Source: Alkalibacillus salilacus (GTDB lineage: Bacteria > Bacillota > Bacilli > Bacillales > Alkalibacillaceae). From it: a stretch of DNA of 64,000 nucleotides. Under the pieces are notes generated by a model that did not search any database, was not told the origin of the DNA, and saw only the letters and a list, made by a program, of their open reading frames with translations. This document shows positions 15,415 to 63,876 of this stretch, piece after piece. Position 1 is the first letter of the stretch; each line of letters opens with the position of its first letter. The stretch covers positions 310,001-374,000 of the forward strand of contig NZ_JAUSTQ010000001.1 in assembly GCF_030812915.1 (NCBI RefSeq), written 5' to 3'. The position numbers were made by a program, and so were the translations under genes.

Positions 15415-15620
15415 GTTGATATTGTAATCCGCTTTCGGTGGACGCTTTCCGCAGGCACGGCTCGAGCCTCCTCGGCCTAAAAGCGTGGCCTCCGGGGTCT
15501 CGAGACTCGTGCTTTTCCCGTGACGGCCCGGACGGCCTAATGTCGACGTTGGTCACAGGACGTGACCGAACTTAGTCGACCAGGAGTCGCCACCTTCGCT
15601 CCTCACAATTCAACAACTAA
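15415..15620 (+). repeat. GC-rich dispersed hairpin repeat, copy 1 (long form)
   Basis: About 206 bp between mnmE and jag, far more GC-rich than its surroundings. Begins AAAGTCCGTTGTTGATATTG and ends CAATTCAACAACTAA, which are imperfect inverted repeats. Interior blocks shared with four other copies: CGGTGGACGCTTTCC, GCACGGCTCGAGCCTCCTCGG, GGGGTCTCGAGACTCGTGC, AGGAGTCGCCACCTTCGCT. It carries the extra GTCGAC-bounded module found only in long copies. No convincing protein. Confidence 0.93.
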
Positions 15621-15668
15621 GAGCTAAATTAAATTGAATTTAAAACTACTTATCTAAATATTAAACCC

Positions 15669-15705
15669 CAAAAAAATAGCTAACCTCTTAGACAGAGGCT
15701 AGCTA
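15669..15705 (-). terminator. Terminator of jag
   Basis: TAGCTAACCTCT-TAGAC-AGAGGCTAGCTA stem with a long A-run on the plus strand (T-run for leftward transcripts), immediately past the jag stop. Confidence 0.8.
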
Positions 15706-15712
15706 CTTTGTT

Positions 15713-16345
15713 TTAGTCGTCTAATTTACGTGGACGAATGACAACTCTTCGATTAGGATCTTGTCCGTCTGAGTAAGTTGAAACATCGCTGTGGTCATGA
15801 AGAGCCGTATGAATGATTTTACGTTCATAAGATGGCATTGGTTCGATGAATACATCTTCTTCAGTACGCGTCGCCTTTTTCGCAAGATTATTCGCTAATT
15901 GTTCTAATGTTTCTTTACGACGTTCGCGATAACCTTCTGCATCAACAACGACAGTATAATGAACACCGCGGTGTTGGTTAACGACTAAACTCGTTAGATA
16001 CTGTAAGGCATTTAATGTTTGACCGCGTTTTCCAATGAGTTTTCCGATTTCATCACCTGTTAACTCATATCTAATCTCATCATCATCTTGGTGAACCTTG
16101 ATATCGACATTGGATGTGCCCATTTGTTCAACCATTTGTTTTAAGTACGTTTTACCATCACTTACTAAGTCTTCTCGTTCTTGTACTTTAACGTAAGCAC
16201 GTTTCGTACCAAATACGCCGAACAAACCTTTCTTACCTTCATCAATCACTTCAACGGTCACTTGATCTTCATTTAAACCTAATTGATCAAGTGCGTTTAG
16301 TTTTGCCTCTTCAACTGTTAGACCACTCGCCGTTATTTCTCTCAC
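15713..16345 (-). CDS. jag: RNA-binding protein Jag/KhpB (SpoIIIJ-associated)
   Basis: A 210-aa cytosolic RNA-binding protein. Domains: Jag-N (residues 1-50), a KH domain containing IGKLIGKRGQTLNALQYL near residue 97, and an R3H domain (YERKIIHTALHDH near 175). In other Firmicutes it partners KhpA and is tied to cell elongation and division; the name comes from its place beside spoIIIJ. The GTG start overlaps the yidC stop by 4 nt, so the two are translationally coupled. Confidence 0.95.
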   Translation of the reverse strand: MREITASGLTVEEAKLNALDQLGLNEDQVTVEVIDEGKKGLFGVFGTKRAYVKVQEREDLVSDGKTYLKQMVEQMGTSNVDIKVHQDDDEIRYELTGDEIGKLIGKRGQTLNALQYLTSLVVNQHRGVHYTVVVDAEGYRERRKETLEQLANNLAKKATRTEEDVFIEPMPSYERKIIHTALHDHSDVSTYSDGQDPNRRVVIRPRKLDD

Positions 16346-61159: not shown

Positions 61160-61435
61160 TTAATCCATTTTCTTTTGGATTTCATTAATTAATTGTTGTG
61201 CGCCTTCTTTACTTAGAACGATGTTTCCGTCGCCAACTGTGATGTTGTCGTTAGAAACCTCTCCAGTAATTTGGCAAGCCATATTAGGTTGGTATTTCTT
61301 AAGCACAATTTGATCGTCGTCAACGTAAATCTCAAGAGCGTCTTTAACGTTGATATCTAATGTACGACGAAGTTCAATTGGAATAACTACTCGTCCTAAT
61401 TCATCGACTTTTCTGACAATACCAGTTGATTTCAT
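61160..61435 (-). CDS. abrB: Transition-state regulator AbrB
   Basis: A 91-aa SpoVT/AbrB family repressor, nearly identical to B. subtilis AbrB in its N-terminal DNA-binding domain (STGIVRKVDELGRVVIPIEL). It represses post-exponential genes in vegetative growth. The C-terminal LSKEGAQQLINEIQKK matches AbrB rather than Abh. Convergent with rsmI; metG diverges from it. Confidence 0.96.
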   Translation of the reverse strand: MKSTGIVRKVDELGRVVIPIELRRTLDINVKDALEIYVDDDQIVLKKYQPNMACQITGEVSNDNITVGDGNIVLSKEGAQQLINEIQKKMD

Positions 61436-61710
61436 TTTGTTTCTCCCCTCTCGATCATAATTTCGCTATCTTTCGAGACTAAATTTACCACTCTTTGTAT
61501 GTATAGTCAATTAATTAAAGTATATTTACTAGTAAAGTGTTTCAAATTGAAACAACATACATCAATGGTGTAGATGTGTCATAAAGAAATAGGATGTACA
61601 ATGAAAAACAATGGAAATTAACGCTTAAAATCGTTACAATAGAACCTAACTGAATATGATGGTATTCATATATAACAAACGTGATATTAATTTATATAGG
61701 AGGTTTCTTA

Positions 61711-63672
61711 ATGCCTGAGGAGAAGAATACGTTTTATATTACAACACCTATTTACTACCCAAGTGGCAACTTACATATTGGCCATGCGTATACAACGGTT
61801 GCAGGTGATGCGATGGCTCGGTATAAACGATTAAGAGGCTATGATGTCATGTACTTAACAGGTACTGACGAACATGGTCAAAAAATTCAACGCAAAGCGG
61901 AAGAAGAGGGAACTTCTCCGAAAGAATATGTGGATGGCATCGTGAGTGGCATTCAATACTTATGGGACAAGCTTGATATTTCTCATGATGACTTCATTCG
62001 AACAACTGAAGATCGTCATAAAGTCATTGTTGAGAAAATCTTTGACCAACTCGTCCAACAAGGTGATATCTATTTAGATGAGTATGAAGGTTGGTATTGC
62101 ACCCCTTGTGAGTCATTCTTTACCGACCGTCAATTAGATGATGGCCACTGCCCTGATTGTGGTCGTCCTGTTGAGCGAGTTAAAGAAGAATCGTATTTCT
62201 TTAAGATGAGTAAGTATGTTGATCGTTTAGTACAGTTTTACGAAGACAACCCAGGCTTTATCCAGCCAGAATCACGTAAAAATGAGATGTTAAGTAATTT
62301 TATTGAACCAGGATTAGAAGATTTAGCCGTATCACGGACGACATTTGAATGGGGTGTGAAAGTCCCTAGTGATCCTAAGCACGTGATCTATGTTTGGATT
62401 GATGCATTATCCAACTACATTACAGCTTTAGGCTACGGAACAGATAACGACGAACGCTATCAAAAGTATTGGCCAGCGGATGTGCATTTAGTTGGTAAGG
62501 AGATTGTTCGTTTCCATACAATTTATTGGCCAATCATGCTTATGGCTCTTGATTTGCCACTTCCAAAGAAAGTTTTTGCTCATGGCTGGTTACTCATGAA
62601 AGATGGCAAAATGTCTAAATCAAAAGGTAACGTCGTCGACCCAGTTGATTTAATTGATCGTTATGGGTTAGATGCGCTACGTTATTACTTATTACGTGAA
62701 GTACCGTTTGGTTCTGATGGTGTCTTCACGCCAGAAGCGTTCGTGGAGCGTTCAAATTATGATTTAGCCAATGACCTAGGTAACTTATTAAATCGTACGG
62801 TAGCGATGATTAATAAATATTTCGACGGTCAAGTGCCAGCGATCACTTTAAATGAAACAAGTTATGATACAGACTTAGTGAAAATAGCGACGGAAACGAA
62901 ACAAAAAGTAGAAGAAGCAATGGATGAGATGGAATTCTCAGTTGCACTTTCAACATTATGGCAATTTATCAGTCGCACGAATAAATATATCGATGAGAAT
63001 GAGCCTTGGGTATTAGCTAAGGATGAAGCACAACGCGATCGTTTAGGAAATGTGATGGCTCATTTAGTCGAGTCTCTTCGCAAGATTGCTATTATGCTTA
63101 AACCTTTCTTAACGTCTACACCTAAGAATATATTGGATCAGCTTGGCATTCAAGATGAGGCGTTACAAACATGGGATAGCATTGCTGAGCATGATCTTGT
63201 CCAAAACGCACAAGTCGTGAAAAAAGGAACACCAATCTTCCCTCGTCTTGACACTGAAGAAGAAGTTCAGGCGATTGTAGATATGATGACGAAGAACTCA
63301 CCAAAACCAGCTGAAGAAACAGAAAATGAAAGTGAAGACCAAGCCGAAGAAGTCACCATTGATGATTTCTTTAAGATTGATTTCCGCGTTGGTGAAGTCA
63401 TTCATGTGGAACAAGTTCCGAAGACAGATAAACTATTAAAGATTCAACTTGATTTAGGCTACGAGAAGCGTCAAGTTGTTTCAGGTATTGCAGAGCATTA
63501 TGGTGAGCAAGATCTAATCGGCCGAAAAGTAATTTGTGTGAGCAACTTAAAACCAGCGAAACTTCGCGGTGAATTATCAGAAGGTATGATTCTAGCCGGA
63601 GAAGATGACAATGGTCATTTAAGCCTCGCAACAATCGATCAAACCTTACCAAACGGAACACAAATTAATTAA
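61711..63672 (+). CDS. metG: Methionyl-tRNA synthetase
   Basis: A 653-aa class I synthetase. Visible: HIGHAYT near residue 25, the zinc-type knuckle CTPCESFF...[18 protein letters not shown], and a C-terminal OB-fold tRNA-binding domain ([21 protein letters not shown]). ATG at 61711 with AGGAGG. No T-box or SAM riboswitch signature is visible in the 275-bp upstream gap. Confidence 0.98.
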
Positions 63673-63720
63673 AAGATAAGGATTGTTAAGGTTAAGTGTT
63701 GATTTTCTAAACATGAAGCA

Positions 63721-63876
63721 CTGAGTTGTTATATTGTGAGTAGCGAAGGTGGCGACTCCAGTGGGAACAGCACGAGTCTCGAGACCCCGCAGGAAGTGCT
63801 TTTCTTCCGAGGAGGCTCGAGCCGTGCCCACGGAAAGCGTCCACCGGGAGCGGATCACAATAGTAACAACGGACTT
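63721..63876 (-). repeat. GC-rich dispersed hairpin repeat, copy 5 (short form)
   Basis: 156 bp between metG and tatD, inverted orientation, same short form as copy 4. Its inner stem reads GGAAG/CTTCC where other copies have GGCC/GGCC: paired substitutions that preserve the stem. A 91-codon frame across it parallels the one across copy 4. Confidence 0.93.

Follow-up and report, generated by a model that had tools for sequence, protein, structure and literature searches.

Among the small repeats of bacterial genomes, the EFAR repeats of Enterococcus faecalis are miniature and modular in build, vary in length and target stem-loops. In Bacilli, the stem-loop repeat families Bhal-1, Bant-1 and Sta-1 were found by clustering, with no mobility assigned to them in the portion of the report considered here (PMC2267715), and the family RF01690, or Bacillaceae-1, is marked Y for RNA and n for cis-regulatory in a table of Weinberg et al. 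2010 (PMC2864571). Here, we describe a GC-rich repeat that occurs in five copies in a window of 64,000 nt (the whole stretch of DNA analysed), which corresponds to positions 310001-374000 of contig C1 in the Alkalibacillus salilacus genome G000, a 2.73 Mb draft in 30 contigs. Judging from sequence comparisons, each copy is probably (rough probability 0.8) a non-autonomous miniature inverted-repeat transposable element (MITE) built on ends of the insertion sequence family IS1595 and carrying a widespread structured core with nested modules.

The original prediction, made from the letters of the window, had placed five copies, with shorter spans, at the sites and on the strands of Table 1, and a repeat search of the window recovered the same five sites. 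Their location between genes was borne out as far as open frames tell, the coding potential of the elements being judged from the listed open frames only. Ungapped repeat pairs among the five copies span 42-232 nt with 68-96% identity, the low values arising because indels break the register; a repeat family is evident, and "near-identical" was slightly too strong a wording. The GC-rich character (inner GC content of 0.55-0.58 vs. 0.387 for the window) and the inner pairings of GGTGG with CCACC, of GCACG with CGTGC, and of CTCGAG twice are present in the sequence. The proposed ends, GTTGTTGATATTG and CAATTCAACAAC, turned out to be internal, since alignment of the flanks revealed a similarity that passes them and extends outward to GGCTCTGTTAAAG-type ends, reaching GGCTCTGTTAAAGTCCGTTGTTGATATT...AAAATCAACACTAAACTTTAACAGAGCC. 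The short form of the element measures about 208 bp between these inverted ends (208 bp in copies 4 and 5), and the same ends are found on IS1595 elements of related genera. The long form (copies 1-3) measures ca. 270 bp; a 60-bp module matching RF01690, present in each of these three, accounts for the difference in length from copies 4 and 5. Small open frames run across the elements (window 52538-52801 and 63646-63921) and encode similar peptides, RWTLSVGTARASS...; they are probably spurious, but liable to be annotated as proteins. Comparison of copy 1 and its flanks with plasmid and phage collections gave no match.

A DNA search of the own genome with copy 4 returned 56 matching pieces that fall into 40 loci. 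At two of these (L030 and L037) the core lies in other surroundings, and the 38 other copies form the set whose ends were compared. Beyond the two ends, the 8 flanking bases agree at 199 of 304 positions, as compared with 119.4 +- 8.3 when right flanks are shuffled, and 0 of 20,000 shuffles reached the observed level. For the 15 best-ended copies (at most 3 mismatches per end), 103 of 120 flanking positions match vs. 54.7 after shuffling. Copies from other genomes behave in the same way, with 71 of 88 matching positions in the sister genome G005 (11 of 20 copies retained by an end filter that allowed up to 4 mismatches at each end) and 124 of 144 in G001, G002 and G008 (18 of 20 copies passing the end filter). 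The repeat is not a product of chance, because this 8-bp signature of target duplication across 38 genome copies is accompanied by a fold of copy 4 that departs from dinucleotide shuffles on the minus strand (z = -6.75) and on the plus strand (z = -2.64). Two same-strand elements were found about 300 bp apart at L010 / L022 (G000:C11:8415-9033).

Database searches also identified a parent family. Of 40 genomes searched with the PF12762 profile, 8 contained matches (9 in total), among them the only transposase remnant of the own genome, a sub-cutoff, decayed and broken fragment at G000:C6:29265; in the window itself no transposase match was reported, as the original prediction had stated. An uninterrupted IS1595 gene occurs in the same-genus relative G001, and its product, 100% identical to an Alkalibacillus aidingensis record, is assigned to the IS1595 family by NCBIfam NF033547 (202.7 bits, cutoff 75). 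A wider search revealed, in Bacillaceae and other Bacilli, 42 loci whose products are related to the G001 protein; together with locus L073, where the same ends as those of the element are accompanied by a duplicated TATAGAAA, they make up a set of 43 IS1595 loci. In 27 of these, GGCTNTGTTAAA-type ends form a pair with a spacing of 1.2-2.5 kb, and 6 or more of the 8 flanking bases are duplicated, the duplication being complete (8/8) in 24 of the 27. AT-rich 8-bp target duplications are observed in the populations of both the element and IS1595. Duplications of at least 7 of 8 bases occur in 11 of 15 G001 copies vs. 13 of 38 own-genome and 7 of 20 G005 copies, a loose comparison because the sets of 15 and 20 came from best matches.

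Taken as a population, the copies are short, numerous and intergenic, with inverted ends that match IS1595, and the case for an IS1595-type MITE is strong at this level. The "MITE-like" nature that had been suggested is therefore well supported by the ends, the population-level 8-bp duplications and the NF033547 assignment, which designate IS1595 as the parent family. It had also been proposed that the prediction would fall if all copies were tied to one mobile element, which, because the repeat is itself a mobile element, is in effect what was found. An IS1595 transposase acting in trans would recognise the ends of the element and move it into AT-rich 8-bp intergenic targets. At L099 (828-908) and L073 (about 3011-3090), very small elements were also noticed that measure about 81 bp, have IS1595-like ends and lack the core.

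Comparison with the sister genome G005, which is 93-95% identical to the window over the main blocks, revealed the presence or absence of individual copies between sister species. Copies 3 and 5 (the latter at about 63680-63892) are missing from G005, copies 2 and 4 are present, and two elements, near window 18125 and near 61675, are found in G005 only; the junction of the element near 61675 is not clean because the window keeps about 35 unmatched bases. Examining orthologous gaps and target duplications had been put forward as a check of the original prediction, and this yielded both polymorphic copies and the 8-bp duplications described above. The pair of copies 2, examined closely, differs in its module, which is present or absent precisely: the G005 copy lacks exactly the 60 bp of the window copy, leaving a minus-strand junction CTCCTG/TGGG with no duplicated bases. 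In copy 4, the G005 element carries near its apical loop an RF01690-like module (by eye) that does not occur in the window copy.

The ends enclose a separate cargo that is widespread, namely a long GC-rich hairpin core with imperfect pairing. A covariance model of this core, R1, was built from 23 sequences and detected at least 58 places in the own genome at E up to 0.001 (best 150 of 225 candidates scored). The density of about one copy per 13 kb given in the original prediction is thus a figure for the window, the genome of 2.73 Mb being sparser, with about one core match per 47 kb. In a class-wide search limited to 13 scored candidates per genome, R1 found the core in at least 81 of 299 Bacilli genomes (own included) and in 27 of 119 genera, which bears out the original suggestion that related repeats occur in other genomes. 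A search of 62 loci provided 73 matches and 71 distinct sequences for covariation analysis. The 24 pairs of the core structure can form in 93.7% of cells, as against 79.3% after shuffling, two-sided changes affect 19 of the 24 pairs, and compensatory cells number 232 vs. 66 in shuffled data, counts that lean towards structure because R1 was built from part of the set and the rows were aligned to R1. Core pairing is kept across genera by compensatory change, and the core has conserved bulged bases.

The same core was found in repeats with different ends. In G065, it lies inside repeats ending GAGGCTGGGACA...TGTCCCA[AG]CCTC (274 bp in 9 of 11 loci), whose inverted ends are clear and for which no target duplication was evident by eye; in G181, it lies inside repeats ending GGGGCTGTCC...GGACAGCCCC (3 loci). 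For the repeat type with GGCTCTAAAATATTTGTT no inverted ends are claimed, because only one end was found. Within G001, the core of L067, an IS1595-type element, is 66-72% identical to three cores of the window genome, and that of L048, in other surroundings, is 85-89% identical to the same three. Ends and cores are thus partly decoupled. With partly separate histories of this kind, cores may have been exchanged between repeats, or many repeats may carry one old core. In L067, the apical arm of the core is swapped for a different, still self-complementary sequence.

Nested modules were identified by searches with RF01690, which matched copies 1-3 of the window at 44.7, 44.7 and 39.2 bits, respectively (cutoff 35). 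In the own genome, with the 150 best of 290 candidates scored, RF01690 gave at least 33 matches, and all those listed lie inside these elements: the core motif accompanies 32 of the 33 and an element end 31 (within about 400 nt), and none of the 33 lacks both. Modules are seen in either orientation within one element and occur at the same few positions in many copies of the genome. RF01690 is found in 78 of 150 genomes of the order, in 49 of 83 genera. A constant tie between RF01690 and the core, which holds for the own-genome matches listed, fails in other genomes, where a core match at E up to 1 was found at 4 of 19 loci (below 0.001 at 1 of 19) and where most loci lie in different GC-rich surroundings, as judged by eye. 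A general entry of RF01690 modules into hairpin loops was not borne out when joined and mismatched flanks were folded (p = 0.23; 19 loci, other genomes). At L087, L088, L049 and L247, further small inserts were noticed by eye in the loop of the RF01690-like module, by an RTCC(T) motif, as a third level of nesting. As an observation, a structured-core cargo with nested modules is strongly supported; further hairpin modules, RF01690 among them, are found in the core at a few fixed positions.

Two rival explanations bear on the modules and the core. The modules may be unable to insert by themselves and may have spread solely as resident elements recombined or underwent gene conversion with one another, which is quite possible, if not favoured. 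Consistent with this, modules share a few positions in many copies of one genome, and the orthologous pair of copies 2 differs chiefly by its module; RF01690 in different surroundings in other genera, with the core match at only 4 of 19 loci, speaks against it. Another explanation takes the core itself as the mobile unit, a folded single-stranded DNA hairpin moved into other repeats by a hairpin-recognising enzyme, the IS1595 ends representing one host only. IS200- or RAYT-like enzymes are analogues of such a mobiliser. The occurrence of one core in repeats with different ends, the copy 2 junction with no duplication, the conserved bulges, and the similar frequency of G-T and A-C mismatches, as expected of DNA pairing, would all fit a mobile core. 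We nevertheless regard it as unlikely: no such enzyme has been identified, and no search for one was made, the hairpin-loop test was negative in the 19 loci, and recombination between repeats could equally swap cores.

Whether pairing serves RNA or DNA was addressed by counting G-U and A-C cells in columns whose commonest pair is Watson-Crick. As a reference, 20 distinct sequences of signal recognition particle (SRP) RNA, drawn from 22 genomes of the family, gave G-U/A-C counts of 69/5 on the RNA strand and 12/42 on the opposite strand. The core gave 39/18 in the minus and 27/35 in the plus orientation with 71 sequences, 14/9 and 9/12 with 23 sequences, and 36/29 over all pairs of the stored structure. 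The core therefore lacks a strong strand signature of RNA, with a mild lean to the minus strand. These mismatch counts favour a core pairing that would serve mainly as folded DNA rather than RNA, a comparison that is suggestive and not decisive because the SRP RNA and core sets differ in size and divergence.

These counts bear on the view that the repeat is a structured-RNA element, its minus strand being transcribed into small RNAs or into 3' untranslated hairpins with a role in stabilising or terminating transcripts, and transposition being a secondary matter. Several observations favour such a role, including the RF01690 matches above cutoff in three window copies, the better folding of the minus strand of copy 4, and a weak similarity of copy 4 to the Staphylococcus aureus small RNA tsr24, RF02577 (E 0.011; 19.9 bits, under the gathering cutoff of 50); no Rfam match to copy 4 exceeded its cutoff. 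Gene orientations, taken from a codon-usage gene caller (another caller took antisense frames for genes, e.g., beside copy 4), point the same way. Among the 38 own copies, both neighbours run opposite to the element plus strand at 22 sites and along it at 5. In a set of 89 copies (the 38, 11 more from the own genome, 20 from G005 and 20 from G001/G002/G008), the minus strand runs along both genes at 44 sites and against them at 14 (58 tandem sites, p = 1e-4), with 10 convergent, 11 divergent and 10 unresolved sites; shared copies are not independent in these counts, and the direction of replication may confound that of the genes. In G005 alone, 9 sites are opposite and 5 along. Likewise, terminator-like hairpins read into the right end of 15 and the left end of 6 of the 38 own copies. 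This asymmetry is weaker elsewhere, with 6 and 2 of 20 in G005 and 4 and 4 of 20 in G001/G002/G008, and IS1595 elements have 6 and 8 of 27. Given also that the G-U to A-C ratio of the core is far below that of SRP RNA of the same family and that RF01690 modules occupy both orientations within one element, an RNA role as the primary explanation appears doubtful. The "structured RNA" of the original prediction is thus supported only in part, as it gains from the RF01690 matches and loses by the weak G-U bias and the two-way modules.

Several observations weigh against an IS1595-derived MITE carrying a structured core. The ends are worn in the five window copies, with 6+3, 3+4, 5+6, 3+3 and 1+5 mismatches (of 13) at the two ends of copies 1-5, which have only 3, 5, 3, 5 and 5 of 8 duplicated flanking bases; the target-duplication signal is a population result. 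Copy 1 is missing from G005, but the gap is rearranged and not a clean empty site. The PF12762 search turned up no intact IS1595 gene in the own genome, a 30-contig draft that may lose repeats, and the left end of the G001 IS1595 locus was not found, its right end being present. At 16 of the 43 IS1595 loci no end pair was found, some of these 16 holding only part of the gene or lying at the edge of a contig. In the minus orientation, the preponderance of G-U cells (39:18) leans towards RNA, and a plain MITE gives no reason to expect the bias in gene orientation (44 of 58 tandem sites).

Table 1. Elements, nested modules, structured cores and structured RNAs in the window
Feature	Position	Strand	Remarks
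Copy 1, long form	15396-15665	+	Between mnmE-like and jag-like genes; degenerate right end, end coordinate approximate
60-bp module in copy 1	15521-15580	-	Overlaps RF01690 Bacillaceae-1 match 15524-15591 (-)
Copy 2, long form	23055-23327	+	Directly upstream of gyrB-like gene; same copy in sister G005 without module
60-bp module in copy 2	23181-23240	-	RF01690 match 23184-23251 (-); missing from G005 copy, junction without duplicated bases
Copy 3, long form, degenerate ends	44127-44393	-	Whole stretch missing in G005; adjoins terminator-like hairpin
60-bp module in copy 3	44212-44271	+	Overlaps RF01690 match 44201-44268 (+)
Copy 4, short form (208 bp between outer ends)	52585-52792	+	G005 copy has RF01690-like module near apical loop
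GC-rich structured core of copy 4	52626-52723	-	Model R1, 111 bits
Copy 5, short form (208 bp between outer ends)	63679-63886	-	Empty site in G005
GC-rich structured core of copy 5	63748-63845	+	Model R1, 114 bits
T-box leader	31998-32214		Rfam
tRNA	33839-33928		Rfam
Large SRP RNA	49114-49381		Rfam

The gene order at window 11963-27856 (mnmG, mnmE, jag, yidC, rnpA, dnaA, dnaN, recF, gyrB, gyrA) resembles what we take to be a chromosome origin region, and two copies of a repeat starting AATGTTTCACGTGAAACATT (window 8288-8333 and 11066-11111) presumably resemble ParB-binding parS sites. The G005-only element near window 18125 (L188) occupies the gap upstream of the dnaA-like gene, likely the origin region, where the window has no element. 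A nucleoid-, repair- or replication-related repeat, similar to Chi or to repetitive extragenic palindromes (REP), would be in keeping with the high copy number, the intergenic location and the five copies in an origin-proximal-looking window. With target duplications and species-specific positions that indicate transposition, this explanation is very improbable.

An IS1595-type transposition gives an origin for a repeat that resembles an RNA gene, and one structured core is common to repeats with different ends over many Bacilli genera. The catalogued RNA family RF01690 may, as these data suggest, be a mobile DNA module. Covariation by itself is no proof of RNA, which raises the testable question of whether an RNA function or folded DNA conserves the hairpins. 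As a MITE the repeat is nothing unusual, in contrast to its core, which other repeats share and in which modules are nested. More speculatively, and with little confidence on our part, Bacilli might harbour a "Russian-doll" system in which a conserved folded DNA core travels inside unrelated MITEs and takes nested hairpin modules at fixed bulges or loops, with no target duplication, via an enzyme recognising folded single-stranded DNA; Bacillaceae-1 of Rfam would then be a mobile DNA module and not an RNA gene.

In the open literature, titles and abstract starts contained no description of the element and no link between RF01690 and mobile repeats, which is weak evidence of absence as subscription papers lie largely outside this scope; judged in the same way, none was about the EFAR repeats either. 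By its general description, EFAR may be the nearest analogue. Bhal-1, Bant-1 and Sta-1 are also structured repeats of Bacilli, a likeness by description. With tsr24, copy 4 shares the blocks GACTCC..GGGA.CAG and CCC..GGAAAGCG. The likeness to Bacillaceae-1 RNA consists of the 60-bp module, above the curated cutoff in three window copies, and the difference is that all 33 own-genome matches listed sit in mobile repeats. With IS1595 insertion sequences and MITEs derived from insertion sequences, the element has in common its inverted ends, its 8-bp AT-rich target duplication and its intergenic dispersal; it differs from such MITEs by an interior made of a GC-rich hairpin core, shared with other repeats, and of modules, in place of a shortened transposase gene.

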